A DNA stretch of 64,000 nt from Aplectana chamaeleonis (taxonomy: Eukaryota; Nematoda; Chromadorea; Rhabditida; Cosmocercidae), in assembly GCA_029168955.1 (NCBI GenBank), contig JAPDOI010000374.1:248001-312000 (forward strand), read 5' to 3'. This document shows, one piece after another, positions 31,691-64,000 of this stretch (its first letter is position 1; each line of letters starts with the position of its first letter). The position numbers were made by a program, and so were the translations under genes. Below the pieces are notes generated by a model. It saw nothing but the letters and a program-made list of their open reading frames with translations, was not told where the DNA came from and did no database searches.

Positions 31691-31699
31691 GTCATGAAG

Positions 31700-44622: not shown

Positions 44623-45091
44623 AGGCAGCATACACGCTCGTAAACGTAAATGAGATAACTACGGAATTAGAATGGTATGGCACCGAGCACAACGCTTACG
44701 CATTTTGAAGCTTCAAAAGCAACCCACAATGACGCCACAGGAGTGAGAAGTTGGTCTCGCCCCTGTATCTGCCCGCCCCCTGTATTTGCCGTCTCTTCCA
44801 AAACAGGGGGCTGGGCCATTTCCAACGTCATCGATGTGTGTGGTTTACTTATTGTACCTATTCCACCACCTACAAACGTCGCCGACGGTGGTGATGGCCC
44901 AGCACCCCTGTTTTGGAGGAGGACGCAAATACAGGGGGCGGGCAGATACAGGGGCGGGGCCAAGTTCCCACTCCTGTAGCGTCATTGTGTGTCGTTTTTG
45001 AAGCTTCAAAATGCGTTGGCGTTGTGTTCGGTGTCATACCATTCTAATTCCGTAGTTATCTCAATTACGTTTACGAGCGTGTACGCTGCCT
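44623..45091. mobile_element. TTAA foldback MITE inserted in the LINE
   Basis: Starts AGGCAGCATACACGCTCGTA and ends inverse at GCTGCCT. TTAA at 44619-44622 and 45092-45095. The arms are nearly complete inverses for about 200 bp (TAATTCCGTAGTTATCTCA, TTTTGAAGCTTCAAAA, GACGCCACAGGAGTG, GCCCCTGTATCTGCCCGCC). Deleting the element plus one TTAA joins ...SKLLF-K and IEQLKF in frame, direct proof of the TTAA duplication. Confidence 0.9.
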
Positions 45092-46150
45092 TTAAGATCG
45101 AACAACTTAAATTCCTTCCCTTAGTCTGTGAGTGGATAAGGGAACATCTGACAGGCTGGAGCTTTCAAATTAGGGTTGGTGATTGTTTCTCATCCGTAAG
45201 AACTGTACAGAGTGTGGTACCCCAAGGAGGGGTCCTATCTCCGATCCTGTTTGCTGTCTACACTGCTGAACTTGCGTTGGTTTTGGAAAGTCGCGGAGTG
45301 GTCTGCAAACAATTCGCAGATGATATCAAAGTGTATAGAAAAGTTGAGGACCCCGAAGACATTGCTGTAATTCAAACAGCTCTGAATAAAGTTCTGGAAT
45401 GGTCGGAAACATGGAGTTTGCCTATGTCACCAGAGAAGACGTTTCATATGAGGATAGGGCCATCGGCTATCTACTCCTCCTCATAATTATTTGCTCGAAG
45501 ATCACACTCTGGTTTCAGTGTCTCATGTCAGGGACTTGGGTTTCCAGTATGATTGCAACTTGAACTTTTCTCTTCATTACAAGGCTCTTGTCAATAAGGC
45601 GTCGTTACAAACGTTCCACATTTTTAAGGCATTGTCTGTTTGTGACCGAAAAGTTCTCACAAAAGCGTATACGACATATGTACGCCCTCTTATGGAATGC
45701 GAGACTCCTGTTTTTTGCCCACATTTTAAAAAAGATATAAACTTACAAGAGAAAGTGCAAAGAAATTTCACGAGAAAAATATTTTTAAGAATGGTAGGAT
45801 TCCGATACGATAGTATCCCTGATTCGTTTTGAAGAAATCAGGACTGTAGTCTGCACACTTTAGAATCAAGAAGAAAGGTAAATGACGTTTGTATGGTTTT
45901 TAAAATTCTCAGCGGAGTTGTTGAAACTGATGTAACGAAAATTTTCAGACTTCAGGCTTCTAGGACCAGGGGTAATTCGGAGAAAATCTTGTACGACACA
46001 CCAAGGACTGGGCACAGTCTGCATGGTTTTACGTGCAGAGCTGGCTCTGTTTTCGTTTCGTTGAACTCCAATGTTCCCTTCATTCCCCCCTGCTTCCGTT
46101 CTTTCAAGCGACTTTCGAGCGGGAAGCTGCTAAGTTTCTGAGAAAATGTA

Positions 46151-46446: not shown

Positions 46447-46722
46447 ATTATCGCTCCAGCCGCGAAGCGGCTGGAGAGGTTTCGTTTTGCCTACGCCTTG
46501 TGATCACTTAGAATTTATAAAGTAGTTTATAGAACCCTTCAAACGAAATTTCTGAAGATTTCCTTCTGGATGTAGGTGAAGAGGTCCAGAAGACACATGC
46601 TATCAAAATTTCAGCCAAATCGGTTCACAAATAACAAAGTTGTGAACGCGAAAGCTTAAGAAAATATCATGGTGTGCGCCGTAGGCCGTGAGCCGTAGGC
46701 CGTAGGCCGTCACGCTTTTCAT
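46447..46722 (-). repeat. 3'UTR of the minus-strand LINE, with terminal hairpin
   Basis: Homologous to 53448-53760 and 61228-61538. At its outer (left) edge is a hairpin with 10-bp stem CTCCAGCCGC and 3-base loop, followed outward by CGATA. Next come CCTTGTGATCACTTAGAATT, TTTCTGAAGATTTCCTTCTG, CACAAATAACAAAGTTGTGA and a 12-bp type GCCGTAGGCCGTGAGCCGTA array. A stem-loop near the 3' end is a common recognition element for CR1-like reverse transcriptases (family knowledge). The role here is inferred from position. Confidence 0.7.
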
Positions 46723-46821
46723 TCCTTCTTCTTCTTGTCAGCCATGAACAGAGCATCGCATCAGAGACGAAGGAAGCTAGCCACCTCACACGGCTTGTAT
46801 CATAGATCATTTATCTGGGAC

Positions 46822-48737
46822 TTACTGATCAATCCGATGAGTGTAGGCCTTTAGATATCTGGAGTGACCGCATCGCAGACCAGCGAGGATTGTTCGGGTA
46901 CGTCTCGGTAGTCCAGCTTCGCTGTCGTCGACTCGCAGGGGCACGCCGCCATAGATTGAGTTGGGCTGAGCATCAGACAGGTACTCTGCCACGAACCGCG
47001 TATGCTCAGCCATCTGGAGTCTTCTTCGCGATAGCTCGGATGTAGCCCAGCGTTGTTGATTGACTGCAGACAGAGAAGCACTGAGCGGCGTGCGTATGCT
47101 TCTTGGGTGGGGCCAGACGACGGAAGATGGTAAATTGGATGGGTCGGGCTCTTGACAATACTTATTAGAAATTGCTGAGACTGGAGTAAGCAGTGCTCTT
47201 TCACGGGAAGTAGGCCGGTTTCCTGATGAAGTTGCGGAATAGGCGTCGACTTGTGACATCCAGTGATAAGCCTGAGGGCAGCATTCTGTGTTCTCTGCAA
47301 TCTGCACCAAGAGGATTCAGAGAGATGCCTGGTCCATATATGGGCACCATATTCCAGGACTGGCTGCACCATGGCCCTATATGTCATACGTAGCACTTCC
47401 TTCGTGCTGCCCCAGGTGTTTCCAGCCAGTGCGCGAAGAATTTTGTTGCGCGAGTTGGCTGAGGCAGCACGTATACGCGCATTCTCATGAAATCGTAGCG
47501 AGGGATCAAGGAAGACTCCCAGTAGTCGAGGATGCTTAGACAGTGGCAGCTCGTGGCCATCCCAGATGACCTTGGGATGAAGCCGATGTTCGATAGTAGC
47601 CGTCGTACATAGTGTGACACTTGACTTGGAGGCAGACACAGTCAGCAACTTTGATTTGAGATACACAGCCAACGTTCGTAAGTAGTTGTTTTGTTTGGTG
47701 GCAGTGGCTCGGTCAATAACTGAGTCCGTGCAAACGATAGTGATGTCATCAGCGTACAGGCACAGATGAATGCCAGTTGGTGGCTCAGGAATATCAGACA
47801 GAAATAGCGAGAACAGGCTAGGGGACAACACCCCGCCTTGCGGGACACCGGCTTTCAATGGGACCGAAGACGATAGATGTCCGTCGAACTTGACACGAAT
47901 GGACCGGTTTTTGACAAAGCTATTAATCCATCTTTTAGACCAACTGGGCAAGTCCGATTCAAGAATGGATTTCGATAGGAGCGGGATGCTGACGCTATCG
48001 AATGCAGCCGAAAGATCAATAGCAACGACGAGGCTTCTACCAGCCGGAGCCTTGCGATTAAATCCAGCGATGATATGCTCGGTGATTGATGTCAGGGCAG
48101 TGATGGTGGAATGCTCCTTTTTGAAACCATGCTGGTGAGTGTTGTGCTGTAAGGCGTTTTGGAGGAGCGGATTGACGACATTCTCAGCAAGCTTGGCTAG
48201 GGGGGAAAGGAGGGAGATGGGGCGGTGGGAGGCAGCCTTGTCCAGTAGCTTGCCAGGTTTGGCGATGGGAATGACGACAGCTTGTTTCCAGCGCGCCGGA
48301 ATAACACCAGAACTGAATGACGAATAAATGAGATCAGAGAGCAATTCATAATAGGCATCAGGAAGATGCCTGAGATGAACAGGCGATATTCCGTCGGGTA
48401 CCTCTGCACGCGAATTTTTCATCGATTTGATGATCTTGTCAATGGCGGAGGTAGAAATAGCAGGGACATCCAGCCGGTTGAGCTTCCTGATTGCACGCAT
48501 TGTTCGTCTGTTTTGCATATCACGAGGCGATGAGGCCGATGTGAAAAGTTTGCCGAGCAGACAAGCTGCCTTGTATCCGTGCTCGAATCTTCCAGGCGGA
48601 AACTCGAGCATATTACGATCCGTGCTCATCTTTTTGCCAGAAATTCGTTTCAGTGTTGTCCAAGCTTTTCTGGCATCCGCGGCAAAATCAATCGACTTGG
48701 TTAGCTCTTTCAGCGCTGCTGCTTGTGTTGATTTAGC
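46822..48737 (-). pseudogene. LINE reverse transcriptase (CR1-like), frameshifted
   Basis: The main frame (46851-48629, extendable upstream in frame to about 48735) shows RT motifs in order: AEVPDGISPVHLRHLP, RPISLLSPLAKLAE, QHGFKKEHST, VVAIDLSAAFDSV (motif A), GVPQGGVLSPSLFSLFLSDI (motif B), LYADDITIV (motif C, YADD intact), KHPRLLGVFLDPSLRFHEN, and the thumb YRAMVQPVLEYGAHIW. The natural C-terminus (RVDDSEAGLPRRTR, LRCGHSRYLKAYTHRID) is read in another frame (46822-47310), so a shift lies around 47000. The usual final Cys-rich knot is not seen. The upstream shift near 48715-48735 separates it from the linker. Confidence 0.88.
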
Positions 48738-50148
48738 AGCTCGGTGATGTTGTCCGGCAGCTGCTGTACCGCAGGATCACTGGGATCCGATATTCGCTCG
48801 TCGTCTCTCATCGTGATCAGGTCGAGGACTTCACTGGGCACGTTTCGGTGAAAAGTCCTTACACGTCCAGTGGGAATAGCTGCTTTGGAGGCACGTTCGA
48901 TGGCTTTGACGATAAACTTCTCCTTATCGTAGACTGTTCCGTTCTTCGGGTAGTTGGCCGCCTGTCTGAGCAACACCTCTTTGAATAGGTCCCAGTTAGC
49001 CTCACGATAATTGGAAAAAGACTTACAACGAGAGCCAGAGAACGAAGCAAGCAAGCTATTAAGTTACAAAACCAATGACGTAATTATGGGAATATGATCA
49101 CTGGCCAGGACCACATCGGTAGACCAGTTACAGGAGATAGCTAGCGAGGATGATACAAAGGTGATATCAGGTGAGGAAAACCTGCCCACTGCCGGAAGAC
49201 GAGTGGGAGAATCCTCATTGATAGGCACAAGATCACAATCATCAGCGAATAATTCAATGAGCTCACCTCTATTGTCAGGCTCTAGAGGAGAGAACCACGA
49301 GGGAGAATGAGCATTACCAGCTCCTACAACCGAACTAGATGACAATGCAGTATGAACAGTATGTAAGTAATTTGAGGGGTCAAACGCGTTAGGACAGGAC
49401 GTGGATGGGGGTATGTAGACGTTGACAATATCAAGGGGGTCACTTTGTAATACAATATGAACACCAAGACATTCTACAACATCATCAGTGGGTAGATTAA
49501 TTAGGTGAGAAGGGATAGAAGATTTTACAAATGTTGAAACACCACCACCGTGAGATGTACGTGGAACATGATAAGACAAATAACCAGGGAGACGGGGAAG
49601 GGAGGGGGAAGATGGGCTAAGCTTGGTCTCCTGCAGGAGAATGACATCAGGTTGAGTGCGATCTATGTACACTGTAAGTTCAGCAATTTTGGCACGCAGG
49701 CCATTGATATTGAGTTGATAAATGCAAAGACTATGTTGAGGAACCCTAGGAGGATTTACAGAGCAAGACATACAACAGTAAGCATGAGTGTAGTCATCAT
49801 AGCTGGACAATCCCGAAAATTTGAGGTGCACCCAGCCAAGGCAACCACCACATTGAATGCTTGCATGTTGAGCAGATAGCCCGCAGTGACAGCAGGGATA
49901 TCGTGGTGTCTTGATGTGCGATCCCGGATTCCTCTCGATGCCAGCTCGTATAAGTAGAATACAGAGGAGTGTAGCAGCCAGCCAATTACACTCCCAATAC
50001 GAAAAAAAATACTCCACATGAAGTGATTGATGTCCGTTTGATGAGTCTCCATAACGTCGACTCCACAGATCCACCACGCGTAGGTTGAACATCTTAAAGC
50101 AGGAGTTCGGGACACGTTGCTGGTCGTTACCGAATTTGTGCACGTCAC
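48710..50148 (-). pseudogene. LINE N-terminal part: 2A-like motif, PHD-like finger, AP endonuclease, linker
   Basis: The frame 50143-49064 (359 residues) has a hydrophobic stretch (about 53-65), then IRAGIERNPGS (65-75), close to the 2A consensus GIExNPGP but with Ser for the last Pro. Next is a PHD-like finger: C84/85, C87, C98, C101, H106, F109 in place of a Cys, C123/124, C127. The endonuclease shows QLNINGLR, DVILLQETKL, NVYIPPS, GAGNAHS (normally GDFNAH; the Asp is lost), PDITFVSS and ASDHIPI. After an in-frame TAA near 49061-49063 the same frame continues as the linker (48710-49054, YREANWDLF, VPSEVLDLI). With the catalytic Asp gone and frames broken, this copy is inactive. Confidence 0.85.
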
Positions 50149-50558
50149 TTCGGAGAGTGAGCAGGAGTCCGGGACCCGTTACTAGTCATCCGGGAAATTG
50201 TGAAGGACACCCCGGAGACAGAGCAGGAGTCTGGGACTTTGCGCTAGTCGTCTGAGATAAAGTGCTGGATGCATCGGAATTGGCGCAGGAGTCTAAGAAC
50301 ACCTTGCAAAACTTCTCTAAAAGTGTGCGGATGACAAGAGTAGCGTGCAGAAAGTTTTATCTTCAGTAGGTCATGTTGCCAGGCTACTTCTGAATTTCGT
50401 ACCGCGTTGAGGCCATCCACGTAACCCCATTTTGAGTGCTGCCTCACTCTTTTTCACCAGCCTACTGATTTCTTCTGCAATAAATGGTATTTGCTTATCA
50501 GAATCTACATTCAAAAACAAATCGTGAGAATTATGATCTCCATTCGCATCTCACAAGG
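50149..50558 (-). repeat. 5'UTR of the minus-strand LINE
   Basis: Lies directly upstream of the endonuclease frame and is homologous to 55383-55790 (CACCTTGCAAAACTT, GTCATGTTGCCAGGCT, AACCCCATTTTGAGTGCT, CTTCACCAGCCTACTGATTT, CTGCAATAAATGGTA). The near part holds degenerate tandem units of about 60 bp with GAGCAGGAGTCCGGGACC. Homology stops at the foldback insertion near 50560. Confidence 0.7.
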
Positions 50559-50573
50559 GAACCACAATAAGTC

Positions 50574-51616
50574 ATAGTGACCATTCCTAATGAAATTTAC
50601 TTTTCTAGAACCATTTTCGGACGAGAAGTCCGAATGTGCCCATCGCAGCTGCCTGGACCCACTCTGAAAAAAGATATGGGCGTTTTTTAAAGCTTCGCGG
50701 CACGGTAAGGGTACCCCCCATGCAATTTTTAGGGTGTTTTTGAATTTTTCTCCTGATTTTGCTAAAAACACGTATGTAAGGGTAATCTGGGGTGCTGAAC
50801 ACGAATCTGGGGTTCGCTTGCCCAAATTTCAAGGTTTACTGTAGTTTACTGTAGGTAGCATGCCATTTAGGAGGCAAAACCTACCTCAAAATTCCGATAA
50901 TCGACAAATGGACATCAAATTCGTATTCAGCACCCCAAATAACCCCCACATGGAAACTTTGAGACAAATCTGAGACTTTGACCAAACTACCGTGTACCCA
51001 CAGTAATCTACCGTAAGCTGCCAGAAATCGATGAACCGACATCAGATTCGTGCTCAGCACTCCAAACAACCTCCAGAGAAGTAACTTGAGCATATTCTAT
51101 AGAAGCACTCCGAAAATCGTCAAAAGTCGCCATTTGCCATCAAATTCTCCCCCAATGGGAATCTGTGAACGAATACAGTCGAAAACTTAGGAAAATCGAT
51201 GAATGAACCTCTGATTCGTGATCAGCACCCAAAATAACCCCTTCGAGCATTTTTAGTCAAATCTGGAATATTTTTCTGAAACGCTTCGAGAGCCTTCTAA
51301 TTGTTACAAATAAACGCCCAACCGAAAATCCGTAAAAGTTCAAAACGCTGTTAGTCTGCGCAAAGTTTCGAGAATGTTCCTTCAACCTAACTTTGCTTAG
51401 TGGGGTAGTTTTGTGCGCTGAACACGATTATGAGGTCCGTTTCCGGATTTTCGTTAATATATGCGCTTTTTGGAGGGTACAATAAGTACAAAAATAAGAG
51501 AAAAAATGCCTATAACTTTTTTCAGAGTGGGTCTAGGCAGCTGCGATGGGCATATTCGGACTTTTCGTCCGAAAATGGTTCTAGAAAAGTACATTTCATT
51601 TGGAATGGTCACTATG
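50574..51616. mobile_element. Foldback element inserted in the LINE 5'UTR
   Basis: Arms of about 115 bp are inverses: CATAGTGACCATTCC, AATGAAAT, ACTTTTCTAGAACCATTTTC, GGACGARAAGTCCGAATRTG, CCCATCGCAGCTGCCT, CCCACTCTGAAAAAA. The left arm resembles the arm at 33312. The interior contains repeated ACGGTAGATTACTG-like and GCTGAACACGA words related to the 29090 repeat. Confidence 0.75.
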
Positions 51617-51899
51617 GCCCAAAGTAAAGCCGGCGAAAATTCAGTTTAGCCTGACTGAATCCATGTTCTGAAAAGAATTCCGGTGAGCCGCACTTATTTC
51701 AGACGTACGTGTTGTAGGATAGCGACCTAGTCTAAGTAGAGAAAGTCAGCAACAAACAAGATAAGCTGAATCATTCAGTCAGATCTGACTGAGTGGATTC
51801 AGTCAGATCTGACTGACTTCTTAGCTAGAGAGTAGAGGAACAGCGTGCCAGGTCAGGAGTGCGCTCGAGACTGTTTTAAGGAGCAAAGGAGTAACTTAA
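51617..51899. other. Short spacer with direct repeats
   Basis: Contains CAGTCAGATCTGACTGA twice in close succession (about 51777-51815), a short palindromic repeat. No gene. Confidence 0.4.
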
Positions 51900-52632
51900 A
51901 GGCAGGGTCCGGGCAGAATTTCGATTTTGAGATTTCACGCTAAATCGGCGCTCTTGTTACAGGTAGTCCCAAGGAACATGCGAAAACTGCGTAAAAATCG
52001 GTCTTCTTCAAGTTATTTCAGCAACTTCCGTTCGCCGATGATCCAGCAAAGTCAGGAAAGAGTGGCCATCATCCATATTTTAGCGATTGTCCACGCATTC
52101 TTCAAAAGTCCTGTGTAATTATCGGTCATTCCAGCCTTGATTTTCATGCTGCGACTACCGCAATCCCTGACATTGAGGCTGTTCTCTCAAGAACTAAGGA
52201 CTCAGAGTTCGTGAAACGTTCAGACGATGTTCAGCTAGGCCAGCCCAATCTATTTAACCCAAATTTCGGTAATGTCAAAATTTGACCGGACCTTGGTTCG
52301 TATTCGCCAATAACCCGCCGGGTACCCGCCGGGTAGTCGAAGGGTAAATGAGGTGAAATTTCAGTACAAAGTGCGCGCTCCACGGCCACCTCTCGCCTCC
52401 CTTGGCTTCCCTCGCGACCGCCGGAATTTTTCGAATCGCATAGCTGAAGAATGGCCGCTTCGCGATGGAATCTTTATCTTTTCGTTGTGATATCGATACG
52501 TAACACAGTTTGCATTTCCATCTTACATGGTGTAAGATGGGTTGATCTGCTCCTCTGCCGCGCGCGGTATCATCCCTTCCGCTTCCCTTCGACTACCCTC
52601 GGCGGGTTGTTGGCGAATACGACCCCTTGCCT
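51900..52632. mobile_element. TTAA foldback MITE interrupted by a second foldback
   Basis: TTAA at 51896-51899 and 52633-52636. The left end AGGCAGGGTCCGGGCAG matches the right terminus once the inner element is removed (GGACC...TTGCCT). The inner element is described separately. Confidence 0.65.
52291..52624. mobile_element. Nested foldback with CGCCAAYAACCCGCCG ends
   Basis: Left GGTTCGTATTCGCCAATAAC, CCGCCGGGTA, CCTTCGACTA-type inverse at right (GACTACCCTCGGCGGGTTGT, TGGCGAATACGACC). It sits within the right end of the TTAA MITE. No coding content. Confidence 0.65.
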
Positions 52633-52636
52633 TTAA

Positions 52637-52960
52637 ATAATTCAGCAGAGATATAGGCTTATCAATCTATCAATATCAATATCAGCTTCCACGAAACAGA
52701 AAGCATTTCATTTATTGAGAAACGGGGTATGGAGTTGGTCGATTCGTGAACGACCATCACAGGTATTATCGAGTCCTCATCATCATGGCTTTGTAAGACC
52801 GACCGCTTCAATGCAGTCTATCACTCGATACGATTTCGGACTCGTCTGAGCCCTGTCTGAATCGTTTCGGGCTCCTCTTATCACCCACTTAGATGATCCT
52901 GACTGAGTGGTGGGTTTACTACGGGCCTATGACTTATTGTGGTTCACTTGTCGGCACACC
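52637..52960. other. Spacer, minor dispersed repeat
   Basis: Includes TTTCATTTATTGAGAAACGG-type sequence related to about 32022. No gene. Confidence 0.35.
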
Positions 52961-53110
52961 TTTTTCGTATCACATTCATGGAATCGAAGCGGCTGTTCCG
53001 TGAAAGGATGGGCGGTGGAAACTAAATAATGAGCATGGGAAACCGCTTTGTTTCATTGATATGAAGGTGCGCAGACAGATGGTATGGAGTTAAGAACTTA
53101 ATGGCCAACG
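52961..53110 (-). repeat. Displaced outer part of the LINE 5'UTR
   Basis: ATTCATGGAATCGAAGCGGC, GTTCCGTGAAAGGATGGG, AAATAATGAGCATGG and CGCTTTGTTTCATTGATATG match 55795-55910, which in that copy directly follows the 50149-50558 homologue. The gap of about 2.4 kb here is therefore later insertion. Confidence 0.6.
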
Positions 53111-53447
53111 GCTGTAACAGCCAGCTCCGTACGCGGTCGCGTCGCGGTCGTGCGAATTCGCATTGGAGCACTTTATTATCGGTTGCGAAACAGCTGTTCT
53201 CCTCCTTGCGAAATACGCCCTTTCGCCGCATTTCATTTCCACAGTCTCTCAGATGCCCGAGTCACTTACAATTTGCGGTATTATTTCGAATTTTTCAATC
53301 TTATGACGCATATTTGTCATCAAACGCCACTCACTTCAAGTTGTTTTAAACTTAACGTGTTGTATTTGCAATGTTCAGAGACAGGTTTCGAAGAAATGTC
53401 TTTTATTTAGAGTTAAGTAATACCGCAAAATCGATATTAGTTAGCGT
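53111..53447. other. Unique spacer, no gene
   Basis: Short frames only (53101-53349 and 53150-53410). No domain. Confidence 0.35.
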
Positions 53448-53892
53448 TATATCGCTCCAGCCGCTTCGCGGTTTGGTTTTGCCTAGGCCTTGTGATCACT
53501 TAGAATTTTATAAAATAGTTTATAGAATCTTTGAAACAAAATTTCTGAAGATTTCCTTCTGGATATAAGCGAAGGGGTCCAGAAGACACCTGCTATCCGA
53601 ATTTCAGCAAAATCGCTTCACAAATAACAAAGTTGTGAGCCCGAAAGCTTAAGAAAATTTCATGGTGTGCGCCGTAGGTATTGTGAGCCAGCCGTAGGCC
53701 GTGGGCCGTAGGCCGTGGGCCGTAGGCCGTGGGCCGTAGGCCGTGGGCCGTAGGCCGTCACGCTTTTCAGTCCTCACTGCTAATAGCCACTGCCAATGGT
53801 CTCAGGCAATCAACTTGGCAGACAGGTAAGTTGGTAGGAGGTACGTAGGCTGGTAATTAACCGATTTGTAGGTGAGGGGGGATTCTGATGAC
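53448..53892 (-). repeat. LINE 3'UTR copy 2, with GCCGTAGGCCGTGG array
   Basis: Nearly identical to 61228-61661 over its length, and similar to 46447-46722 up to CACGCTTTTCA. The terminal hairpin is decayed in this copy (CTCCAGCCGCTTCGCGG only). The 12-bp GCCGTGGGCCGTA units lie at 53690-53758. A segment of about 130 bp (CTCACTGCTAATAGCCACTG, CAACTTGGCAGACAGGTAAG) joins it to the satellite; this joining segment is absent from the long LINE. Confidence 0.8.
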
Positions 53893-54581
53893 GTCATCGG
53901 GACGTCGTGAAAAGTGCTTCGAGCTTCTGATGACGTCATCGGGACGTCGTGAAAAGTGCCTCGAGTTTCTGATGACGTCATCGGGACGTCGTGAGAGTGC
54001 TTCGGGCTTCTGATGAGGTCATGGGGACGTCGTGAAAAGTGCTTCGGGCTTCTGATGACGTCATCGGGACGTCGTGAAAGTGCTTCGGGCTTCTGATGAC
54101 GTCATCGGGACGTCGTGAAAAGTGCTTCGGGCTTCTGATGACGTCATCGGGACGTCGTGAGAGTGCTTCGGGCTTCTGATGACGTCATCGGGACGTCGTG
54201 AAAAGTGCTTCGGGCTTCTGATGACGTCATCGGGACGTCGTGAGAGTGCTTCGGGCTTCTGATGGCGTCATCGGGACGTCGTGAAAGTGCTTCGGGCTTC
54301 TGATGACGTCATCGGGACGTCGTGAAAGTGCTTCGGGCTTCTGATGACGTCATCGGGACGTCGTGAAAAGTGCTTCGGGCTTCTGATGACGTCATCGGGA
54401 CGTCGTGAGAGTGCTTCGGGCTTCTGATGACGTCATCGGGACGTCGTGAAAAGTGCTTCGGGCTTCTGATGACGTCATCGGGACGTCGTGAAAGTGCTTC
54501 GGGCTTCTGATGACGTCATCGGGACGTCGTGAAAAGTGCTTCGGGCTTCTGATGACGTCATCGGGACGTCGTGAGAAGTGC
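53893..54581. repeat. 41/42-bp satellite array 1 (about 16 units)
   Basis: Unit: CTTCTGATGACGTCATCGGG then ACGTCGTGAAAAGTGCTTCGGG. Units ending GTGAAAAGTG (42 bp) largely alternate with GTGAAAGTG or GTGAGAGTG units (41 bp), giving an 83-bp dimer. Each unit has the 12-bp palindrome GATGACGTCATC with the octamer TGACGTCA, and a second GACGTC. Open frames through it are repeat translations. Confidence 0.95.
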
Positions 54582-54786
54582 GGGACTATCCTAGACGGGG
54601 GGGGGGGCACTCAAGATTCAAGTCAGAAATGGAATGAACCACCGATCTATAACGCTATCAATCGAAGTATTTCTACAGAGCTTCATCAAGAAAAATGAGT
54701 GATAGCAGCATCAAACATCTTTTATCAGGGTTTCCATTCATTTTCATTAGAAAGTCGTGGGTGCCCCCCCCGTCTAGGATAGTCCC
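54582..54786. mobile_element. MITE in satellite, copy 1 of 3
   Basis: Left end GGGACTATCCTAGACGGGGG plus CACTCAAGATTCAAG, right end the inverse of the first 20 bp. It sits inside a satellite unit: AGTGC lies on both sides. Confidence 0.85.
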
Positions 54787-54836
54787 AAGAGTGCTTCGGG
54801 CTTCTGATAACGTCATCGGGACATCGTGAGAAGTGC

Positions 54837-55040
54837 GGGCCTACCCCAGACGGGGGGGGGGCACTCAAGATTTAAGTCAGAAATGGAATGAACCACCGAT
54901 CTATAACGCTATCAATCAAAGTATTTCTACACAACTTCATCAACAACAATGACTGATAGCAGCATCAAGCACCTTTTATCAAGGTTTCCATTCATTTTCA
55001 TGAGAAAGTCGTGGGTGCCCCCCCCGTCTAGGATAGTCCC
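54837..55040. mobile_element. MITE in satellite, copy 2 of 3
   Basis: Same as copy 1 with small changes at the left end (GGGCCTACCCCAGACGG). Separated from copy 1 by a single satellite unit with the variant TGATAACGTCATCGGGACAT. Confidence 0.85.
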
Positions 55041-55090
55041 AAGAGTGCTTCGGGCTTCTGATGACGTCATCGGGACATCATGAGAAGTGC

Positions 55091-55296
55091 GGGACTATCC
55101 TAGACGGTGGGGGGGCACTCAAGATTCAAGTCAGAAATGGAATGAACCACCGATCTATAACGCTATCAATCGAAGTATTTCTACAGAACTTCATCAACAA
55201 CAATGATTGATAGCAGCATCAAACATCTTTTATCAGGTTTTCCATTCATTTTCATGGGAAAATCGTGGGTGACCCCCCCCCGTCTAGGATAGTCCC
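55091..55296. mobile_element. MITE in satellite, copy 3 of 3
   Basis: As copies 1 and 2. The three copies plus one satellite unit each form a tandem of about 254 bp, so the MITE was amplified with the satellite rather than inserted three times. Confidence 0.85.
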
Positions 55297-55382
55297 AAGA
55301 GTGCTTCGGGCTTCTGATGACGTCATCGGGACGTCGTGAAAAGTGCTTCGAGCTTCTGATGAAGTCATCGGGACGTCGTGGA
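55297..55382. repeat. Last two satellite units of array 1
   Basis: Two units, the second with TGATGAAGTCATC, end in CGTCGTGGAAACCCGG where the 5'UTR homology starts. Confidence 0.8.
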
Positions 55383-55915
55383 AACCCGGATAGTGGGCAG
55401 GTGTTCGGGACCCGTTGCTGCTCATCCGAAAAGTTGTGAAGACCACCCCGTAGAGTGAGCAGGAGCCCAGACTCGATGCTAGCCATCCGAGAAATTATGT
55501 CCCGGAATTTGCGCAGGAGAGAACACCTTGCAAAACTTTTGTAAAAGTGTAAGGATGACAAGCATAGCAAGCAGAAAGTTTGAGATGTTATGTGAGTCAT
55601 GTCAGGTCATGTTGCCAGGCTGCTTTTCAGTTTCGTAAGGTCATTCACACAACCCCATTTTGAGTGCTCCCTCTTCCTTCTTCACCAGCCTACTGATTTT
55701 TTCTGCAATAAATGGTACTTGCTTATTAGCATCCAAATTCAAAAACAAATTGTTAGAACTATCTCCATTCGCAGCTCAGCAGAGCTTTTTCATATCAGAT
55801 TCATGGAATCGAAGCGGCTGTTCTGCGAAGGAATGGGGCAACAGGAACCGAAATAATGAGTATGTAAAACTGCTTTGTTCCACTGATGTGAAAGTGTCCA
55901 GATGGAATGGAAGGT
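55383..55915 (-). repeat. LINE 5'UTR copy 2
   Basis: Matches 50149-50558 (to about 55785) and then 52961-53110 without interruption, so it preserves the intact 5'UTR order. Together with 53448-53892 it brackets the satellite array in the place where the long LINE has its ORFs. Confidence 0.7.
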
Positions 55916-55950
55916 AGTTTCTGACTGTCCCGGTTTTAAGTTAGTTTCAT

Positions 55951-56142
55951 TTGAAAGCGAAGAACTGCAGGCAGATTCTGCATCCGGCTGTAGGCCAGCA
56001 GGCTTTCATGATTATCGACCGGGCTGGCTACGTCTGGGCGACCAACTATAACCGGGGCCTAAGGTCCCTGTCAGAGTTGGTTGAGAAAATCACCGTGGCC
56101 GACCCGTTCGATACGTATGAAAAACATGGAAGGTGCAAATAA
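55951..56142 (+). other. Unrecognised 63-residue open frame
   Basis: Composition is protein-like (AFMIIDRAGYVWATNYNRG, then LSELVEKI), but I do not recognise a family. It is close to the LINE-derived element and upstream of the zinc-finger exon. It could be an exon, but no convincing splice sites were seen. Confidence 0.2.
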
Positions 56143-56149
56143 CACCCGG

Positions 56150-56275
56150 TGTAGCCAGATGTGGCTGACGCGATCAATATGAATGAATTATGTGGAACGA
56201 TATCATGGATATCATTCATTTCTTAGCTAATATCATGTGAACATCGGTCTTGTCAGCCACATCGAGTGATTTTTC
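56150..56275. repeat. Small inverted repeat
   Basis: AGATGTGGCTGAC (about 56158) and GTCAGCCACATC (about 56257) are inverses around an ATCATGGATATCAT-type centre. Confidence 0.45.
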
Positions 56276-56415
56276 TGAGATAGTTTTACAACAGTTTGGG
56301 TCATTGATTCTTGTGACCACAGAAAGAGGACTGATCTAGTGGGGAGATGAAGAGGTCTTTGTTCGAAATTCTTGCATGGGATATTACAGCGTAATATCAA
56401 GAAAAAGTGAACAAT

Positions 56416-56917
56416 TCTGTAAAAAGGGTCTCCCAAGCAGAAGTGGTTTGGTTAGCGTTACAAATGCTTCAACAAAAAGGGAACAATAGGAAAGCGGAAT
56501 GAGGAGAGTCTACAAAAATGAACAATATCCTCCAAGAACTCTTTTCTTTTTCGAAACTTCCAAACAGCGGAAACAAACCGTTGTGGTATTTTACGAGGAA
56601 GAAATTGACTGGTTCCTAAAACAATTTAACATCATCTCCCCTTTTAATGATAGCTATTAGGTTCACATGCATATATACATATTTTATCGGCACTCACATA
56701 ATCAAAGTCCTTTATGGAGCCAAAAGCGCTTCCTCATAGAGAACCACAACGGTTTGTTTCCGCTGTTTGGAAGTTTCGAAAAAGAAAAGAGTTCTTGGAG
56801 GATATTGTTCATTTTTTGTAGACTCTCCTCATTCCGCTTTCCTATTGTTCCCTTTTTGTTGAAGCATTTGTAACGCTAACCAAACCACTTCTGCTTGGGA
56901 GACCCCTTCTTTACAGA
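56416..56917. mobile_element. Foldback element with about 185-bp arms
   Basis: Left CTGTAAAAAGGGTCTCCCAA, GCAGAAGTGGTTTGGTTAGC, GTTACAAATGCTTCAACAAA and its inverse at right. The arms continue through AATAGGAAAGCGGAATGAGG, TATCCTCCAAGAACTC and GTTTCCGCTGTTTGG (inverse). The centre is about 140 bp. No coding content. Confidence 0.85.
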
Positions 56918-56992
56918 ATCAGTATTGCATTCGAATTCGTCTAGTACTGTGATATATTATCTTCTCGTGACGAATTTGCATTGCTTTTTCAG

Positions 56993-57218
56993 AGGTGGAG
57001 TTAAAGAAGATGAACTGTGGATGCTGTGAACGGCCTATGCCGGTATTCCGCAACTACCTGAGGCACTTGAGGGAGCAACACGATGAAGAAGGATCGGCCC
57101 TGGCTACTCAATTGCTGGAGGAGAAAAAAACATCGAGCCAACAAGACAATGATTGTAGTTGCGCCTCGTGCAGCTATAAAGGACCTTCTCAGCAGGCGCT
57201 GAAAATGCATATATCCAG
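56993..57218 (+). CDS. Exon with two C2H2 zinc fingers
   Basis: Preceded by the acceptor TTTTTCAG (ends 56992) and ending at the donor CAG|GTATTC. It is open throughout, starting with the last two bases of a codon and ending with two bases of the next. Finger 1: C-x2-C-x12-H-x4-H in CGCCERPMPVFRNYLRHLRE. Finger 2: C-x2-C-x12-H within CASCSYKGPSQQALKMH, with the last His probably coded by the next exon. Between them is a Glu/Lys/Gln-rich linker. The likely role is nucleic-acid binding. The next exon could not be found: all nearby acceptors lead to stops, and the intron phase does not match the exon at 60213 directly, so at least one exon is missing or the gene is broken. It could be a host gene or a transposon-encoded protein. 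Confidence 0.55.
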
Positions 57219-58379
57219 GTATTCTCATTGCTGTCTATTTTACTTCTCTCTTTGGCGTCCAATTCAAGCTTAGAAAGTTCTTCTCTTTCTTTCTATTGTT
57301 CATGTACCCCAGCTAGACTGTGAATGGGGTTTCACCGTTTCTCATGATTAAGCAATGCCAGGTGCAGTTGTGGTGTCCTATAACGGGTTGTGGATGGGGT
57401 CGTAACGATCTTGGGTACTCTGAAGTTCTCTTGCTGAACACTGTAGTTTTCGAAGAGAAATTTTGGTCCACACTTGCGGCTAGTCGCTGCTGCATCACGC
57501 AACACGATGATAAAATTGGGCTGGAACGAAGGTTGATCGTGGCAGGACCGCGTGCTCTAAGCAGAATTACCTTAATGCTCCGTGATTCAAAGCGGCTCTC
57601 CGCAAGCGTGAACTGGAGTGTCCAATCGAGTCAGCCTTCGCTGCTCCTGTGAAGCTTTAATTGCGAGAAGAATGGGCAGGAAATCTCTTCCCACCTAAAA
57701 GATCTTATTGAGAGTCGAATTTCGGTCTAAAAATAAAAACGTCGAGTAGGGCAGGGTAATGAAACGTTTGGTTTAAAAGTTACAGTAGTTCGTAAAAACT
57801 TTTTTGGACACTGGGGGAGGGTCGTAGCCTCGCCGAGACCAAGACCTGCTCCCTTGCAGAAGGGGTCCTAAAACAAGAAGCTCCCTGTGCCCAAGAGATG
57901 ATGGTAAGGGAAAGTTTTATTGATATTGGTAGCCGTTCCAAAAGTGTCGCACATCTCTAGAATTCCAATTGTGTGCATATCTTGCCTCGAACACTTTTTG
58001 CAGTTCTGAGGAAACGATCTTCTGAGGAATAAAATGAACATTTCCAAGTTTTTGAATTCATCTCAGGCGCCCTGGTAGATCAAAAAAAGGTGATTCGCTC
58101 ACGGACTCACTTTATCGGACACCAGAAATAGGAACAAATCTAGCTTGTACTAGGTCTTATTAGTGCTTGTTTTACCCCAATGATTTAGAAAATCATGTTC
58201 TGAGTGTTGGAGGTATAGTGCTATCAATAACCCGTGTTTGAAATTTCCCAAATGCCTAATAGATTTACAGAAGTGGGCAAATCTCACAGTTTTGCAAAGC
58301 GGAAAGGGCTACCTGAATGACATTTCTTACACGGTGTTCAAAAAAATTGTTTCGGATTTGGCTCAAAACTTTTCTCTAT
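57219..58379. other. Presumed intron or intergenic
   Basis: The plus frame 57320-57652 contains WCPITGCGWGRND, but it is not joinable in frame to the preceding exon. Otherwise nothing recognised. Confidence 0.3.
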
Positions 58380-59300
58380 GAGTTGTTTCAGGGTGGCGAT
58401 TATAAATCTAAGGCTCTTTTGTCGATTTTTCTGGGAAATTCTGGCTGATTTGGTCCGAAGCCTGAAAATGAGGGATATTTTGCTGGAAAAACGCCACTTT
58501 TGACGATTTCTCTGAGTGATGCAATAAAATAGCCTCACAACTTCTCCATAGAGGGTATTTCGGCTGCTTTACACAAATTTGCGGTCCATTGATCGACTTT
58601 GTTTGCATTACGGTATACAGCGGGGGGGGGGGTGGTGTGCTTATTTGGGCCAAAATTCGGTCCGCAATTGCGTCTCGACACGGTTCGCGGCCGCACGCGC
58701 TGGAGTCAGTCGAGTTTCCAGCGCCAAAGCCGACTCGATATGGCTTTTTATACAGTTTTCTCCAAGTTCGTTTACTTTCCAGTTTCTAAAACCCACCTAA
58801 AGTCAACAGATCGGCGGCTGCGGAGCTGGAAACTCTTCCGACTCGAACGCGCGCGGCCGCAAAGCGTGTCGGGACGCAATCGCAGACCGGAATTTGGCCC
58901 AGATAAGCACAGTATCTGTGAGCTTAGTCGAGGTCTAAGATTTGGCTCAAAATTCCTTTGTTGGTGTTATTTGGGACGCTGAACACGGATTCGATGTCTA
59001 TTCGTCGATTTTCGAAAAGTCCAGGCAGGCTACGTGAGCTTAAAGGCGTTATGCCTACCAGAACCTACACCAGCCCTAAGGCCGGCATCATACTTCAAGC
59101 GACGAGATGCAATGTTTACCTCCAGTATCGACCAAAAATCGATATGCCTTATATGCACTTTCGCCGTCATCGGTCGCGGGAACTATCCCTGCGTAAGTCT
59201 AGCGACGAACAGACCCCATATTCACGTTCAGCTCTTTAAATGAACCCGGTTGAAAGTTTTCAGCCGATTCCGAGAAAATTTTCCTGAACACACAAAAAAT
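58380..59300. repeat. Dispersed repeat copy 2, with a MITE inside
   Basis: Aligns with 29090-29760. The homology breaks at CATTACGGTATAC and resumes near 58930, bracketing the MITE at 58636-58912. Confidence 0.6.
58636..58912. mobile_element. TA-flanked MITE (copy 2)
   Basis: Same family as 20762-21040: TGTGCTTATTTGGGCC at left, GGCCCAGATAAGCACAG at right followed by TA. Inserted in the dispersed repeat. Confidence 0.75.
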
Positions 59301-60212
59301 CCATGATGGTTTCGCGAAGGAATGAATTCTCTTTTCTCGAATCCTCGAAGGCACTTAGAGGCTTTTGAGTACGTGTCATTTATGTACTGTTACGAATGTA
59401 TTCTCTGGTTCCGAGCCAGATTTACTCTGTTACCTCGCGCGCGTGCGGAGCGAGGGTAGAGACAGCGAGAAAGTGTGGGGAGAAGGAGACGCAGCGTACG
59501 CACGCAGACGCACGCGACGAACGGAAATAAATAACACTCGGAAACAGAGGATACAACAACGCAAACATGGACACGGATATGAGACCTCTCAGATTTTCGG
59601 AGGATTATGGTAGACCACAGTAGCCGAATAATTTTTTCCACCAGTGCTTTATTTTTCAAGGAATACTATAAACGAACACAGCTGTGTTCAGCGCTCCAAT
59701 CAAACGTTCCTCCGCACGGTGTTTCGGTTGAATTGTCTTCCATTTCCATGTGTGTATTCAAAGCGACCCATTCAGCCGTCAATGTCCCTCCTATTCTGGA
59801 AAGGCTAAAGAACTATTTATCGCTCGTGATATACCTTAGTCCCAGGGTCCAGGAGTATAGAAAAGGGCATTCGTTGGATTAAGTTGACTTATTTTAGCGC
59901 TCTGACTAGCTCCTTATTGTTTTGTAATGATAAAATCTTTCCGATATGAACGAAGTGTGAGTTCCTTCAATTAGGATCTCCGCTTTTTTGCACAGTTCAA
60001 TTCAATTTTCCATAACTGTTCAGAATCAGCATTGTCTTATTTGCAACGTCTGCCCCGTCTCGGTAACCTGTTCCTGCCCAGATAATACCAGAAGCGGTAC
60101 ATCTTGCAAGCATGCTCATGCTTTCAAAATACTGCATGATGGTGAGTGAAAATAAATGACCTTCGGGCTGATGTCTATCCAGAAGGAGGTAAGTAGAAAG
60201 CTTGGTTTTCAG
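59301..60212. other. Presumed intron or intergenic, nothing certain
   Basis: TGTTACGAATG at about 59389, followed by a GC-rich stretch to about 59530, has the look of an LTR start, but no matching end was found. No gene. Confidence 0.3.
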
Positions 60213-60880
60213 ACTGTGATACTGTTGCGGACTCTTCAACTGATCAAGAGGCGACCGCTGATGATGTGGACAGGCAGTCAGATGTCTCGGATTTCAACAA
60301 CAATGCCATCACAGAGCCTCCGCCCGAGGACGCTACTAAAGAATACTGTGCGTCTACGCGGCTACGCGCTGAGAGGGTGAGTGCATAACGACGGTTGTCT
60401 TTCATGATAGCAATTTTCCACTGTTTTGTTGTACAGATGCTCGACTTGCTTTCTGCTCAAATGACAAGTCTAACGCTGGGTGGCACTAATCAGGATTTGC
60501 AGAAGCTGAGGGAAATAGAGTACGATATGAAGAACGTTGTGGAGAAACATGTGTCCGGTAAGTTGCGAACTTTTCATGGACTAAAGTCGGAAATTATGCG
60601 GGTCGCTTTAGATGGTGTTTGGTCTGGTATCCCTATGCGAAGGCATCTGAATACGGCTGGCCGGCCTCCATTGCTTTTGAAGCAGATGAAGAATGGATTA
60701 TACATGTGCCAGATAAAGCACAGGGGGTAAGATGTAAATATCCTATCTTTGAATCTAGCAGAATCATGATGAACTTTAATTTTCAGAGAACCGCACTGAA
60801 AGCAAGGAGAAGAACATCTCGAGTGCCACCAATCATTGCTGACGACATTGGAGATGACGAGTTGGAATTATGTGCCGTTG
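60213..60880 (+). CDS. Four consecutive exons of a nuclear-type protein
   Basis: Exons 60213-60376, 60437-60557, 60686-60726 and 60787-60880 join in frame. Acceptors: GTTTTCAG, TTGTACAG, GAAGCAG, ATTTTCAG. Donors: GTGAGT, GTAAGT, GTAAGA and possibly GTAACC. Introns are 60, 128 and 60 bases. Exon 1 is acidic (CDTVADSSTDQEATADDVDR, ending YCASTRLRAER). Exon 2 is a probable coiled coil (MLDLLSAQMTS..., DLQKLREIEYDMKNVVEKH). Exon 3 gives DEEWIIHVPDKAQG. Exon 4 is a basic then acidic stretch (RTALKARRRTSRV, IADDIGDDELELC). No catalytic domain is seen. The finger exons upstream and PHD-like finger downstream suggest a chromatin or DNA-binding factor, possibly transposon-derived. Reading on, the frame stops at 60923-60925. 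Confidence 0.6.
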
Positions 60881-60910
60881 GTAACCAGCAACAACTAAAT
60901 GGAGAATCAG

Positions 60911-61140
60911 GACAATGGTTTCATTGACTGGGTGCAGTGCGAAGATTGCGACACGGGCGCACGTTCAGTGCATAGTTGGTAGAAACTGTGTGTGCTGTGG
61001 CGTGGGCATCATGGCTGCTACTGAGTCGGATAGCTTGGATGTATGTATATATATTTTCCTCTCCCTAGTCAATCTTTTTCTATGGACTCTTTCATTTACA
61101 GGACGTTTGCGAAGCAAATCGAAATTTAGAGGAAGCTTGA
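60911..61140 (+). pseudogene. PHD-like finger, out of frame, and terminal exon
   Basis: The sequence right after the previous exon encodes NGFIDWVQCEDCDT in a second frame, and then AHVQC...NCVCCG in a third. Together they form the second half of a PHD finger (W-x2-C-x2-C, H-x2-C, C-x2-C). Each switch needs a one-base gain or two-base loss, the later one near 60954-60957. The third frame continues to 61040 (SLD), a GTATGT donor, a 61-base intron and the exon 61102-61140 (DVCEANRNLEEA, stop TGA). Clean splicing downstream argues that this was the true C-terminus. Either the gene is decaying or the sequence has local errors. Confidence 0.55.
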
Positions 61141-61212
61141 GAAGCGAATCGAAATTCACAGGACGTTTGCGAAGCCAACAGGAATTCAAGACGACGCTTG
61201 AGAAGCGAATCC
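61093..61212. repeat. 60-bp tandem duplication of the terminal exon
   Basis: ACAGGACGTTTGCGAAGC occurs at 61098 and 61158, and CTTGAGAAGCGAATC at about 61136 and 61196. The second unit even carries its own CAG|GACG acceptor-like junction. Confidence 0.7.
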
Positions 61213-61227
61213 AATCGAGTAGTATAT

Positions 61228-61661
61228 CGCTCCAGCCGCGAAGCGGCTGGAGAGGTTTGGTTTTGGCTAGGCCTTGTGATCACTTAGAATTTTATAAAAT
61301 AGTTTATAGAATCTTTGAAACAAAATTTCTGAAGATTTCCTTCTGGATATAAGCGAAGGGGTCCAGAAGACACCTGCTGTCCGAATTTCAGCAAAATCGC
61401 TTCACAAATAACAAAGTTGTGAGCCCGAAAGCTTAAGAAAATTTCATGGTGTGCGCCGTAGGCCGTGAGCCGTAGGCCGTAGGCCGTGGGCCGTAGGCCG
61501 TGGGCCGTAGGCCGTAGGCCGTGGGCCGTAGGCCGTCACGCTTTTCAGTCCTCACTGCTAATAGCCACTGCCAATGGTCTCAGGCAATCAACTTGGCAGA
61601 CAGGTAAGTTGGTAGGAGGTACGTAGGCTGGTAATTAACCGATTTGTAGGTGAGGGGGGAT
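61228..61661 (-). repeat. LINE 3'UTR copy 3, with intact terminal hairpin
   Basis: The hairpin with 10-bp stem CTCCAGCCGC and a GAA loop is perfect here. The rest is nearly identical to 53448-53892, including the GCCGTAGGCCGTGG array (61456-61537) and the joining segment to the satellite. Confidence 0.85.
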
Positions 61662-64000
61662 TCTGATGACGTCATCGGGACGTCGTGAAAAGTGCTTCGG
61701 GCTTCTGATGACGTCATCGGGACGTCGTGAAAAGTGCTTCGGGCTTCTGATGACGTCATCGGGACGTCGTGAAAGTGCTTCGGGCTTCTGATGAGGTCAT
61801 CGGGACGTCGTGAAAAGTGCTTCGGGCTTCTGATGACGTCATCGGGACGTCGTGAAAGTGCTTCGGGCTTCTGATGACGTCATCGGGACGTCGTGAAAAG
61901 TGCTTCGGGCTTCTGATGACGTCATCGGGACGTCGTGAAAGTGCTTCGGGCTTCTGATGACGTCATCGGGACGTCGTGAAAAGTGCTTCGGGCTTCTGAT
62001 GACGTCATCGGGACGTTGTGAAAGTGCTTCGGGCTTCTGATGACGTCATCGGGACGTCGTGAGAGTGCTTCTGGCTTCTGATGACGTCATCGGGACGTCG
62101 TGAAAAGTGCTTCGGGCTTCTGATGACGTCATCTGGACGTCGTGAAAGTGCTTCGGGCTTCTGATGACGTCATCGGGACGCCGTGAAAAGTGCTTCGGGC
62201 TTCTGATGACGTCATTGGGACGTCGTGAGAGTGCTTCGGGCTTCTGATGACGTCATCGGGACGTCGTTAAAAGTGCTTCGGGCTTCTGATGACGTCATCG
62301 GGACGTCGTGAGAGTGCTTCGGGCTTCTGATGGCGTCATCGGGACGTCGTGAAAAGTGCTTCGGGCTTCTGATGACGTCATCGGGACGTCGTGAAAGTGC
62401 TTCGGGCTTCTGATGACGTCATCGGGACGTCGTGAAAGTGCTTCGGGCTTCTGATGACGTCATCGGGACGTCGTGAGAGTGCTTCGGGCTTCTGATGACG
62501 TCATCGGGACGTCGTGAAAAGTGCTTCGGGCTTCTGATGACGTCATCGGGACGTCGTGAAAAGTGCTTCGGGCTTCTGATGACGTCATGGGGACGTCGTG
62601 AAAAGTGCTTCGGGCTTCTGATGACGTCATCGGGACGTCGTGAGAGTGCTTCGGGCTTCTGATGACGTCATCGGGACGTCGTGAAAAGTGCTTCGGGCTT
62701 CTGATGACGTCATCGGGACGTCGTGAAAGTGCTTCGGGCTTCTAATGACGTCATCGGGACGCCGTGAAAAGTGCTTCGGGCTTCTGATGACGTCATCGGG
62801 ACGTCGTGAAAGTGCTTCGGGCTTCTGATGACGTCATCGGGACGTAGTGAAAAGTGCTTCGGGCTTCTGATGACGTCATCGGGACGTCGTGAAAAGTGCT
62901 TCGTGCTTCTGACGACGTCATCGGGACGTCGTGAAAGTGCTTCGGGTTTCTGATGACGTCATCGGGACGTCGTAAAAAGTGCTTCGGGCTTCTTATGACG
63001 TCATCGGGACGTCTTGAAAGTGCTTCGGGCTTCTGATGACGTCATCGGGACGTCGTGAAAAGTGCTTCGGGCTTCTGATGACGTCATCGGGACGTCGTGA
63101 GAGTGCTTCAGGCTTCTGATGACGTCATCGGGACGTCGTGAGAGTGCTTCTGGCTTCTGATGACGTCATCGGGACGTCGTGAAAAGTGCTTCGGGCTTCT
63201 GATGACGTCATCTGGACGTCGTGAAAGTGCTTCGGGCTTCTGATGACGTCATCGGGACGCCGTGAAAAGTGCTTCAGGCTTCTGATGACGTCATCGGGAC
63301 GTCGTGAAAGTGCTTCGGGCTTCTGATGACGTCATCGGGACGTCGTGAAAGTGCTTCGGGCTTCTGATGACGTCATCCGGGACGCCGTGAAAAGTGCTTC
63401 GGGCTTCTGATGACGTCATCGGGACGTCGTGAAAGTGCTTCGGGCTTCTGATGACGTCATCGGGACGTAGTGAAAAGTGCTTCGGGCTTCTGATGACGTC
63501 ATCGGGACGTCGTGAAAGTGCTTCGGGCTTCTGATGACGTCATCGGGACGTCGTGAAAAGTGCTTCGGGCTTCTGATGACGTCATCGGGACGTCGTGAAA
63601 GTGCTTCGGGCTTCTGATGACGTCATCGGGACGTCGTGAAAAGTGCTTCGGGCTTCTGATGACGTCATCGGGACGTCGTGAGAGTGCTTCGGGCTTCTGA
63701 TGACGTCATCGGGACGTCGTGAAAAGTGCTTCGGGCTTCTGATGACGTCATCGGGACGTCGTGAAAGTGCTTCGGGCTTCTGATGACGTCATCGGGACGC
63801 CGTGAAAAGTGCTTCGGGCTTCTGATGACGTCATCGGGACGTCGTGAAAGTGCTTCGGGCTTCTGATGACGTCATCGGGACGTCGTGAAAAGTGCTTCGG
63901 GCTTCTGATGACGTCATCGGGACGGCGTGAAGAAGTGCTTCGTGCTTCTGACGACGTCATCGGGACGTCGTGAAAGTGCTTCGGGCTTCTGATGACGTCA
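61662..64000. repeat. 41/42-bp satellite array 2 (about 56 units, runs off the window)
   Basis: Same unit and same largely alternating 42/41-bp dimer as array 1, without MITEs. Scattered point variants (GACGCCGTG, CATCTGGACG, GACGTAGTG, TTCTGACGACG) recur at several places, indicating amplification of larger blocks. For example, ATCTGGACGTCG after a CTTCTGGCTT unit appears near both 62080-62140 and 63150-63215. Confidence 0.95.

Follow-up and report, generated by a model that had tools for sequence, protein, structure and literature searches.

A satellite array inside a non-autonomous, probably Helitron-like DNA element of the nematode Aplectana chamaeleonis

How dispersed satellites originate and spread is an open question, and a stretch of 64,000 nucleotides from the nematode Aplectana chamaeleonis raises it in a concrete form. 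The stretch, referred to here as the window, is C1462:248001-312000 (contig JAPDOI010000374.1) of a 1.037-Gb assembly of 2,087 contigs. Three units lie in it on the minus strand and share a 3' module, one of them holding the genes of a long interspersed nuclear element (LINE) and the other two holding arrays of a 41/42-bp satellite. A first-pass annotation, made from the sequence of this one locus, took the shared modules for the untranslated regions of the LINE, and the satellite-bearing units for a non-autonomous LINE family that has traded its genes for an expandable repeat and spreads it by retrotransposition. Is the satellite, then, the cargo of a LINE? Comparison with other copies in the genome points elsewhere. 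What encloses the satellite is a non-autonomous DNA element, which likely spreads by rolling-circle copying of the Helitron type and has the arrays as its inner part; the adjoining LINE is an unrelated insertion. This reading is probably correct as a whole.

A constant unit around the satellite

A search of the genome with the 3' module gave 1927 candidates, of which 40 were scored and 20 fetched as 10-kb stretches. The satellite adjoins a 117-bp segment and the 3' module in all 20 loci, always in a single orientation. The 5' domain is present in 17 loci within the 10 kb and in an eighteenth, L009, which is the third of the window units (copy 3), once that stretch is extended; the stretches of L016 and L023 are too short for it to be read. 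At every one of the 18 readable loci the satellite lies between the 5' domain and the 3' module. Together with 244 exact genome matches to the junction between array and 117-bp segment, these loci bear out the proposed dispersed, non-autonomous family with an expandable satellite between conserved ends, and the case in which module and satellite co-occur at the two window loci only did not arise; the LINE origin and the retrotransposition did not stand, for reasons given below.

Where the element is complete, its parts follow one another in a constant order. From 5' to 3' these are a foldback, the 5' domain, one or two satellite units, a repeated composite of one 206-bp palindrome-ended unit and one satellite unit, the satellite array, the 117-bp segment, 7-bp repeats, and the 3' hairpin. 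Array length varies: by anchor counts, the 18 complete copies (copy 2 of the window and those at 17 loci) hold 21-150 satellite units and 2-24 of the 206-bp units in arrays of 1,497-7,939 bp, copy 3 reaches about 11.9 kb, and L023, which is incomplete, contains 33 or more of the 206-bp units. These palindrome-ended units, first described as miniature inverted-repeat transposable elements lying within the satellite, belong to the element as a regular and amplified component at the loci read and are not chance insertions. The 5' domain carries extra segments in at least six loci, for example about 203 bp in L011, L015, L020, L022, and L025. The full foldback end is found in 14 of the 17 copies that can be read at the 5' terminus; in L010 and L025 the foldback is inverted relative to other copies, as would be expected if its arms recombine.

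In the window, the second unit (copy 2) is a complete element of 3,467 bp at 53452-56918 on the minus strand, its termini set by comparison of 17 loci. The first-pass annotation had ended it too early, leaving out about 1 kb of further 5' domain that finishes in a foldback. All parts lie on the minus strand. The 3' end (53452-53690, by alignment; the terminal hairpin lacks part of one arm) is followed by 7-bp repeats of the GCCGTAG type (53691-53758), the length of which differs between copies, and by the 117-bp segment that separates them from the array (53759-53878; 0 of 123 differences to copy 3). The 41/42-bp satellite array proper occupies 53879-54581, and three 206-bp palindrome-ended units with one satellite unit apiece (period 254-256 bp) occupy 54582-55296. 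The first satellite units following the 5' domain lie at 55297-55384. The whole 41/42-bp array with its palindrome-ended units, which the first-pass annotation had noticed, spans 53879-55384. Beyond are the inner 5' domain (55387-55902; 97-99% identity in 17/17 loci where found), the outer 5' domain (55903-56407), and the foldback 5' end (56408-56918), which begins TTCTGTAAA and has arms about 84% identical over 520 bp. An initial estimate of the 5' end, 526 bp upstream of the 5' domain from comparison with L022 alone, was replaced by about 1,020 bp from other queries. Copy 2 has no open frame longer than 141 aa.

Copy 3 occupies 61227-64000 of the window, minus strand. The 3' end, the 7-bp repeats, and the 117-bp segment all lie there, along with the initial 2.3 kb of satellite, the pure array being at 61657-64000. 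The figure of at least 2.3 kb was sound as a minimum: the copy runs past the window to about C1462:323116, some 13.9 kb in total, with 267 satellite units (anchor count) and four of the 206-bp units. The two copies match at 96% over the 3' module (61254-61656 against 53470-53878), and their 3' parts differ at 2 of 318 sites.

The LINE as a nested insertion

If the shared modules were LINE termini, other copies of the LINE should carry them. The window LINE, with endonuclease and reverse transcriptase frames (Pfam Exo_endo_phos_2 and RVT_1), lies at 46723-50095 on the minus strand, its ends set by other copies as GGATCCAAGATG... and ...GGCTGACAAGAAGAAGAAG; the frames are damaged, being interrupted by a stop at 49064 and shifting near 48.75 and 47.1 kb. 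A query spanning the join between these frames and the supposed 5' untranslated region (49000-50140, 1,141 bases) gave 2,243 candidate places, 40 of which were scored, one being the window itself and the remaining 39 having 95-96% identity. Similarity stops at query base 1096, which is window position 50095, in 37 of the 39 other copies, at 1095 in one, and at 1079 in one, so that all 39 end at or inside that point. Five copies read at both ends all begin GGATCCAAGATGTTCAACC and finish at or near GGCTGACAAGAAGAAGAAG amid unrelated flanks, and neither shared module is present in any of them, nor in a more distant LINE copy in L028. The interpretation of the modules as LINE untranslated regions fails on these copies. 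As the other copies stop at their own ends, the window LINE occupies about 46723-50095 within a unit whose ends are 46451-46722 and 50096-53085; it is a separate insertion, hosted by a diverged relative of the satellite element.

Parts of this relative lie on both sides of the LINE, on the minus strand. Its 3' terminal module (46451-46722), comprising 7-bp repeats and a 3' hairpin and formerly read as the LINE 3' untranslated region, is 91.5% identical to copy 3 (46452-46710 against 61228-61487), in keeping with the noted 3' module common to all three units. Its 5' domain (50096-50553 and 52951 to about 53085) matches copy 2 at 77% (50151-50553 against 55387-55778) and 79% (52951-53075 against 55776-55902), which upholds the proposed 5' homology between the two units, and matches an older genomic copy of the satellite element at 81%. 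The long unit's 5' region was given as 50149-53110; a 2.4-kb insertion interrupts it at 50553-52951. This insertion has 25-bp inverted ends. Intermediate in divergence is a copy elsewhere in the genome (C2:1331300-1337000), which shares the 5' modules, the satellite, and the 117-bp segment. The case shows how a reading of one locus can let a nested LINE pass its identity to an unrelated element.

Termini and insertion sites

Fourteen of the 17 readable copies end on the 5' side at T(T)CTGTAAAAAAGGGG, and A precedes in all 14. The junction is A|TC in two and A|TTC in twelve, the T being placeable on either side. The 3' end is GCGA followed by T in 20 of 21 cases, the exception being L025 with G; the end sequences of the satellite element are TTCTGTAAAAAAGGGG and GGCTGGAGCGA. 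A 3' hairpin of ten pairs lies three bases from the end, and it folds much better than shuffled sequences do, with z -3.92 for copy 3 and z -2.95 for the diverged relative. In one copy there is an inverted 9-bp match, GGTTTGGTT / AACCAAACC, at best a weak candidate for subterminal repeats, with its halves about 32 nt inside the 5' terminus and 27 nt inside the 3' terminus.

Two paralogous empty sites show what insertion does to the target. One is GGAGGA^TTTACAG, where L028 is inserted in LINE sequence, and the other is AATCAAAA^TATGCATCC, where L019 is inserted and a repeat in L021 is empty. Both read A^T with nothing duplicated or lost, and the target-site duplications that the LINE interpretation had led one to look for are absent from the two. 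A T^T target had been considered and was replaced by A^T after the second site, the shared T leaving the exact cut ambiguous. Most 3' ends have neither a poly(A) tail nor a repeat tail. The 3' flanks differ between copies in nearly all loci, indicating that the window copies are not a segmental duplication; L023 and L026 share 399 bp of 3' flank at 98.5%, through duplication or because the same repeat was hit twice.

Mode of movement

The lack of target duplication, insertion at A^T, a 3' hairpin, a central array, and the lack of a long frame together fit a non-autonomous rolling-circle element. In such a scheme, a Rep/helicase supplied in trans would nick the element at its 5' end, and one strand would be peeled off through the array until the 3' hairpin stops the process. 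The array would be copied along with the element, could later grow or shrink by unequal exchange or slippage, and might occasionally be left behind without its carrier. The genome has 42 matches to Helitron_like_N, with open frames of more than 1,000 aa at 10 places. One such match (C84:1633219-1633758), which has an open frame of 248 aa, neighbours the satellite element of L020 at about 2.5 kb on the upstream side, possibly by chance, and a foldback relative at 72-75% is found at L041:2547-2845, downstream of a Helitron Rep gene.

Several observations weigh against rolling-circle copying of this kind. The 3' end is CGA and not the CTRR of canonical Helitrons, and the 3' hairpin of copy 2 is damaged, with a fold that gives no signal (z +1.00). 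Five readable stretches downstream of Rep genes, at places guessed from frame length (a sixth reads N), contain no such 3' end, and no autonomous partner was found among them. Three of 17 copies (L012, L018, and L024) stop within the foldback. The evidence on insertion comes from two empty sites only, and the 20 fetched loci, picked by high 3' identity, are a selected sample. Finally, just 10 of the 84 exact 3' ends listed on C1-C8 lie no more than 15 kb from an exact 5' arm, and 4 adjoin an array junction. Because CTRR is missing, the subterminal repeats are weak at best, and the Rep-gene stretches lack these ends, the element is called Helitron-like and is filed in neither Helitron nor Helentron.

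The rival that survives best, although it is unlikely, is a DNA element of another kind, for instance one of the foldback type or a hairpin-ended one, as yet undescribed, with an enzyme of its own. A foldback 5' end of 0.5 kb would suit it, as would the missing CTRR and partner. The same holds for the lack of any exact array junction up to 20 kb away at about half of the foldback loci (43 of 80 after merging, on C1-C138). No terminal inverted repeat beyond the 9-bp match joins the ends, however, and the absence of target duplication is what would be expected of rolling-circle rather than cut-and-paste movement.

Considerably less probable is a LINE-derived non-autonomous retrotransposon, like SVA or RIME, inserted by target-primed reverse transcription without target duplications. 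An SVA-like retrotransposon was favoured initially and was dropped upon comparison of the termini and the empty sites. In its favor, both modules are common to window units of which one holds LINE genes, and LINE insertions lacking target duplications are known, so that this lack alone does not exclude all LINEs; the three copies missing part of the outer foldback could also be counted for it. Against these points stand the absence of both modules from other LINE copies, the sharp A^T insertion, and 3' ends that mostly lack poly(A) and repeat tails. Nor is any copy 5'-truncated with loss of the 5' domain: this domain is kept at 18/18 readable loci and the outer foldback is lost in 3/17, in a sample outside which most genomic 3' ends lie. 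Spread of the satellite by segmental duplication or recombination, with element ends beside arrays by chance, could draw on two arrays whose flanks of 1.3-1.5 kb lack element parts and on the flank shared by L023 and L026, but the fixed order in 20/20 loci, the mostly different 3' flanks, and the clean empty sites refute it for the loci read and leave it a negligible probability, though it may still explain the free arrays.

Inheritance and change of the array

The unique parts of the 18 complete copies differ by 0.61-1.90% (mean 1.29%, 153 pairs), and over these 153 pairs sequence distance is uncorrelated with difference in array size (Spearman 0.06, p 0.50). The first 206-bp unit is closest to the first unit of copy 2 in 15 of 17 loci, which suggests that the 5' edge of the array is inherited, and the 206-bp units inside copy 2 differ mutually by 4-7%. 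On the simplest reading, a structured array was already present in the common source and has been copied with the element, its 5' edge kept and its interior remodelled. Within copy 3, block duplication is likely: the score of the repeat at a 26-unit lag, 15.10, compares with a highest value of 15.18 among 1000 shuffles.

Other proposals about the array did not hold. That the two arrays of the window have unit variants in a common order is not shown, the observed agreement being reached by 135/2000 and 340/2000 shuffles. Nor does the TGACGTCA palindrome stand out as a conserved site: it has 6 changes in 560 cells where the rest of the unit has 31 in 1820, and 65 of 72 units keep it intact, which gives no clear excess of conservation. 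Derivation of the satellite by shortening of a 62-bp repeat of the 5' domain was tried by local alignment, matched by 166/1000 shuffles for the relative and 688/1000 for copy 2, and by end-to-end alignment, matched by 31, 169, 17, and 233 of 300 shuffles for four repeats; two of these lie below 0.11 and none is convincing. For a hammerhead or other ribozyme in the satellite, the window gives no Rfam match at gathering thresholds, and 53400-56300 gives only weak matches to microRNA models (best E 0.068). Plasmid, viral, and prokaryote collections hold no exact or near match to the satellite, animals being outside the scope of that search.

Carriers and free arrays across the genome

The 3' end has 2,654 exact matches in the genome, the 5' arm 362 (both arms counted), and a satellite 38-mer 32,648, the last implying by arithmetic, for units of 41-42 bp, no less than about 1.3 Mb; for these three counts and that of the array junction, reversed-pattern controls all gave 0. 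Among 55 junctions listed on C1-C138, an exact 5' arm lies no more than 20 kb away on the 5' side in 36 and on the 3' side in one. As few of the listed 3' ends lie near a junction or a 5' arm, satellite carriers are a minority in a wider set of elements to which the 3' end belongs, and the rest would be other relatives or incomplete copies.

Ten satellite clusters occur among the matches listed, and seven of them have an exact 3' end at a distance of up to about 1-11 kb. The flanks of the remaining three were read. One is a diverged element on C2 and two are free arrays, C4:1072249-1080249 (8 kb) and C2:3280346-3280845 (0.5 kb), with no element part within 1.3-1.5 kb on either side. Such free arrays may derive from elements.

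A bolder reading, in which the genome holds a rolling-circle element bearing its cargo at no visible cost to mobility, with a two-tier satellite of 1.5-12 kb, a foldback 5' end, the shedding of free arrays, and perhaps the standing of a superfamily of its own, is offered tentatively and is more doubtful than the Helitron-type mechanism itself. If it were true, satellite birth, growth, and release would be traceable stepwise within one genome.

Other features of the window

Minisatellites with periods of 20-22, 41-42, and 62 bp, roughly multiples of 21 bp, recur in the window among sequences that are unrelated, perhaps by chance (positions 9827, 12151, 12512, 13086, 13394, 16570, 30253-31695, 33854, 33945, 36239, 50098, 53879, and 61657). 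That at 30253-31695 is a second 42/21-bp satellite, of the GTGTGCAGGACCCCAGTGGGA type, which is also found in the flanks of L012, L019, L021, and L025. A mariner-type transposase frame (Pfam Transposase_1) lies at 5431-6294 on the minus strand, and part of another reverse transcriptase (RVT_1) at 44980-45486 on the plus strand.

Comparison with known systems

The SVA and LAVA elements, in the sections of PMC4432496 used here, resemble this element in having an internal array of 30-50 bp repeats with conserved edges and a remodelled interior, but they are moved by LINE-1 reverse transcription, which the evidence here opposes. To the knowledge of its authors in 2015, no non-LTR retrotransposons other than these had complex tandem repeats in their interior (PMC4432496), and the satellite element adds no entry to that list.

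Rolling-circle elements offer closer parallels. Canonical Helitrons, as outlined in part of PMC4067079, likewise insert at A^T without target duplication and have a 3' hairpin. They begin with TC, to which the A|TC of two copies and the A|TTC of twelve may correspond. The element ends in CGA in place of CTRR, and 3 bases separate its hairpin from the end where canonical Helitrons have about 11. The DINE-1 and HINE-Mo Helentrons treated in the same part of that source are also non-autonomous, with central repeats and a microsatellite, a 3' stem-loop, and an unmodified target. Helentrons are defined there by subterminal inverted repeats of 12-15 bp (13 bp in DINE-1), against which only the 9-bp inverted match, weak at best, can be set. 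A 3' palindrome and central tandem repeats are the Helentron/HINE traits that the element does have, the hairpin being damaged in copy 2.

The nearest system is Cg_HINE, non-autonomous Helentrons of Crassostrea gigas, which in the portions of PMC7492417 consulted show conserved flanks, a microsatellite, and satellite-like tandem repeats at the centre, have a 3' palindrome, and are spread across the genome without target duplication, again with no identified autonomous partner and, in one member, with two consecutive arrays. Its monomers are mostly 140-180 bp, in arrays averaging up to 5 and at longest 29 units, and its target is T-rich (PMC7492417, same portions); here the units are 42 bp and number 21-267 per copy, a second tier of 250 bp is present along with a 0.5-kb foldback 5' end, and the target is A^T. 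According to the model of Scalvenzi and Pollet, as cited there, longer arrays reduce mobility and array length is thereby limited. The mobility of long copies is not proven by the present data, since arrays may grow after insertion, but with 21-267 units among copies that differ by 0.6-1.9%, the relation of array length to mobility becomes a testable question. The exact sequences described here were not found in print by a search of the literature by words, not by sequence. Rolling-circle elements that carry satellites are already known, and what sets this one apart is the combination of very long arrays with a foldback end.

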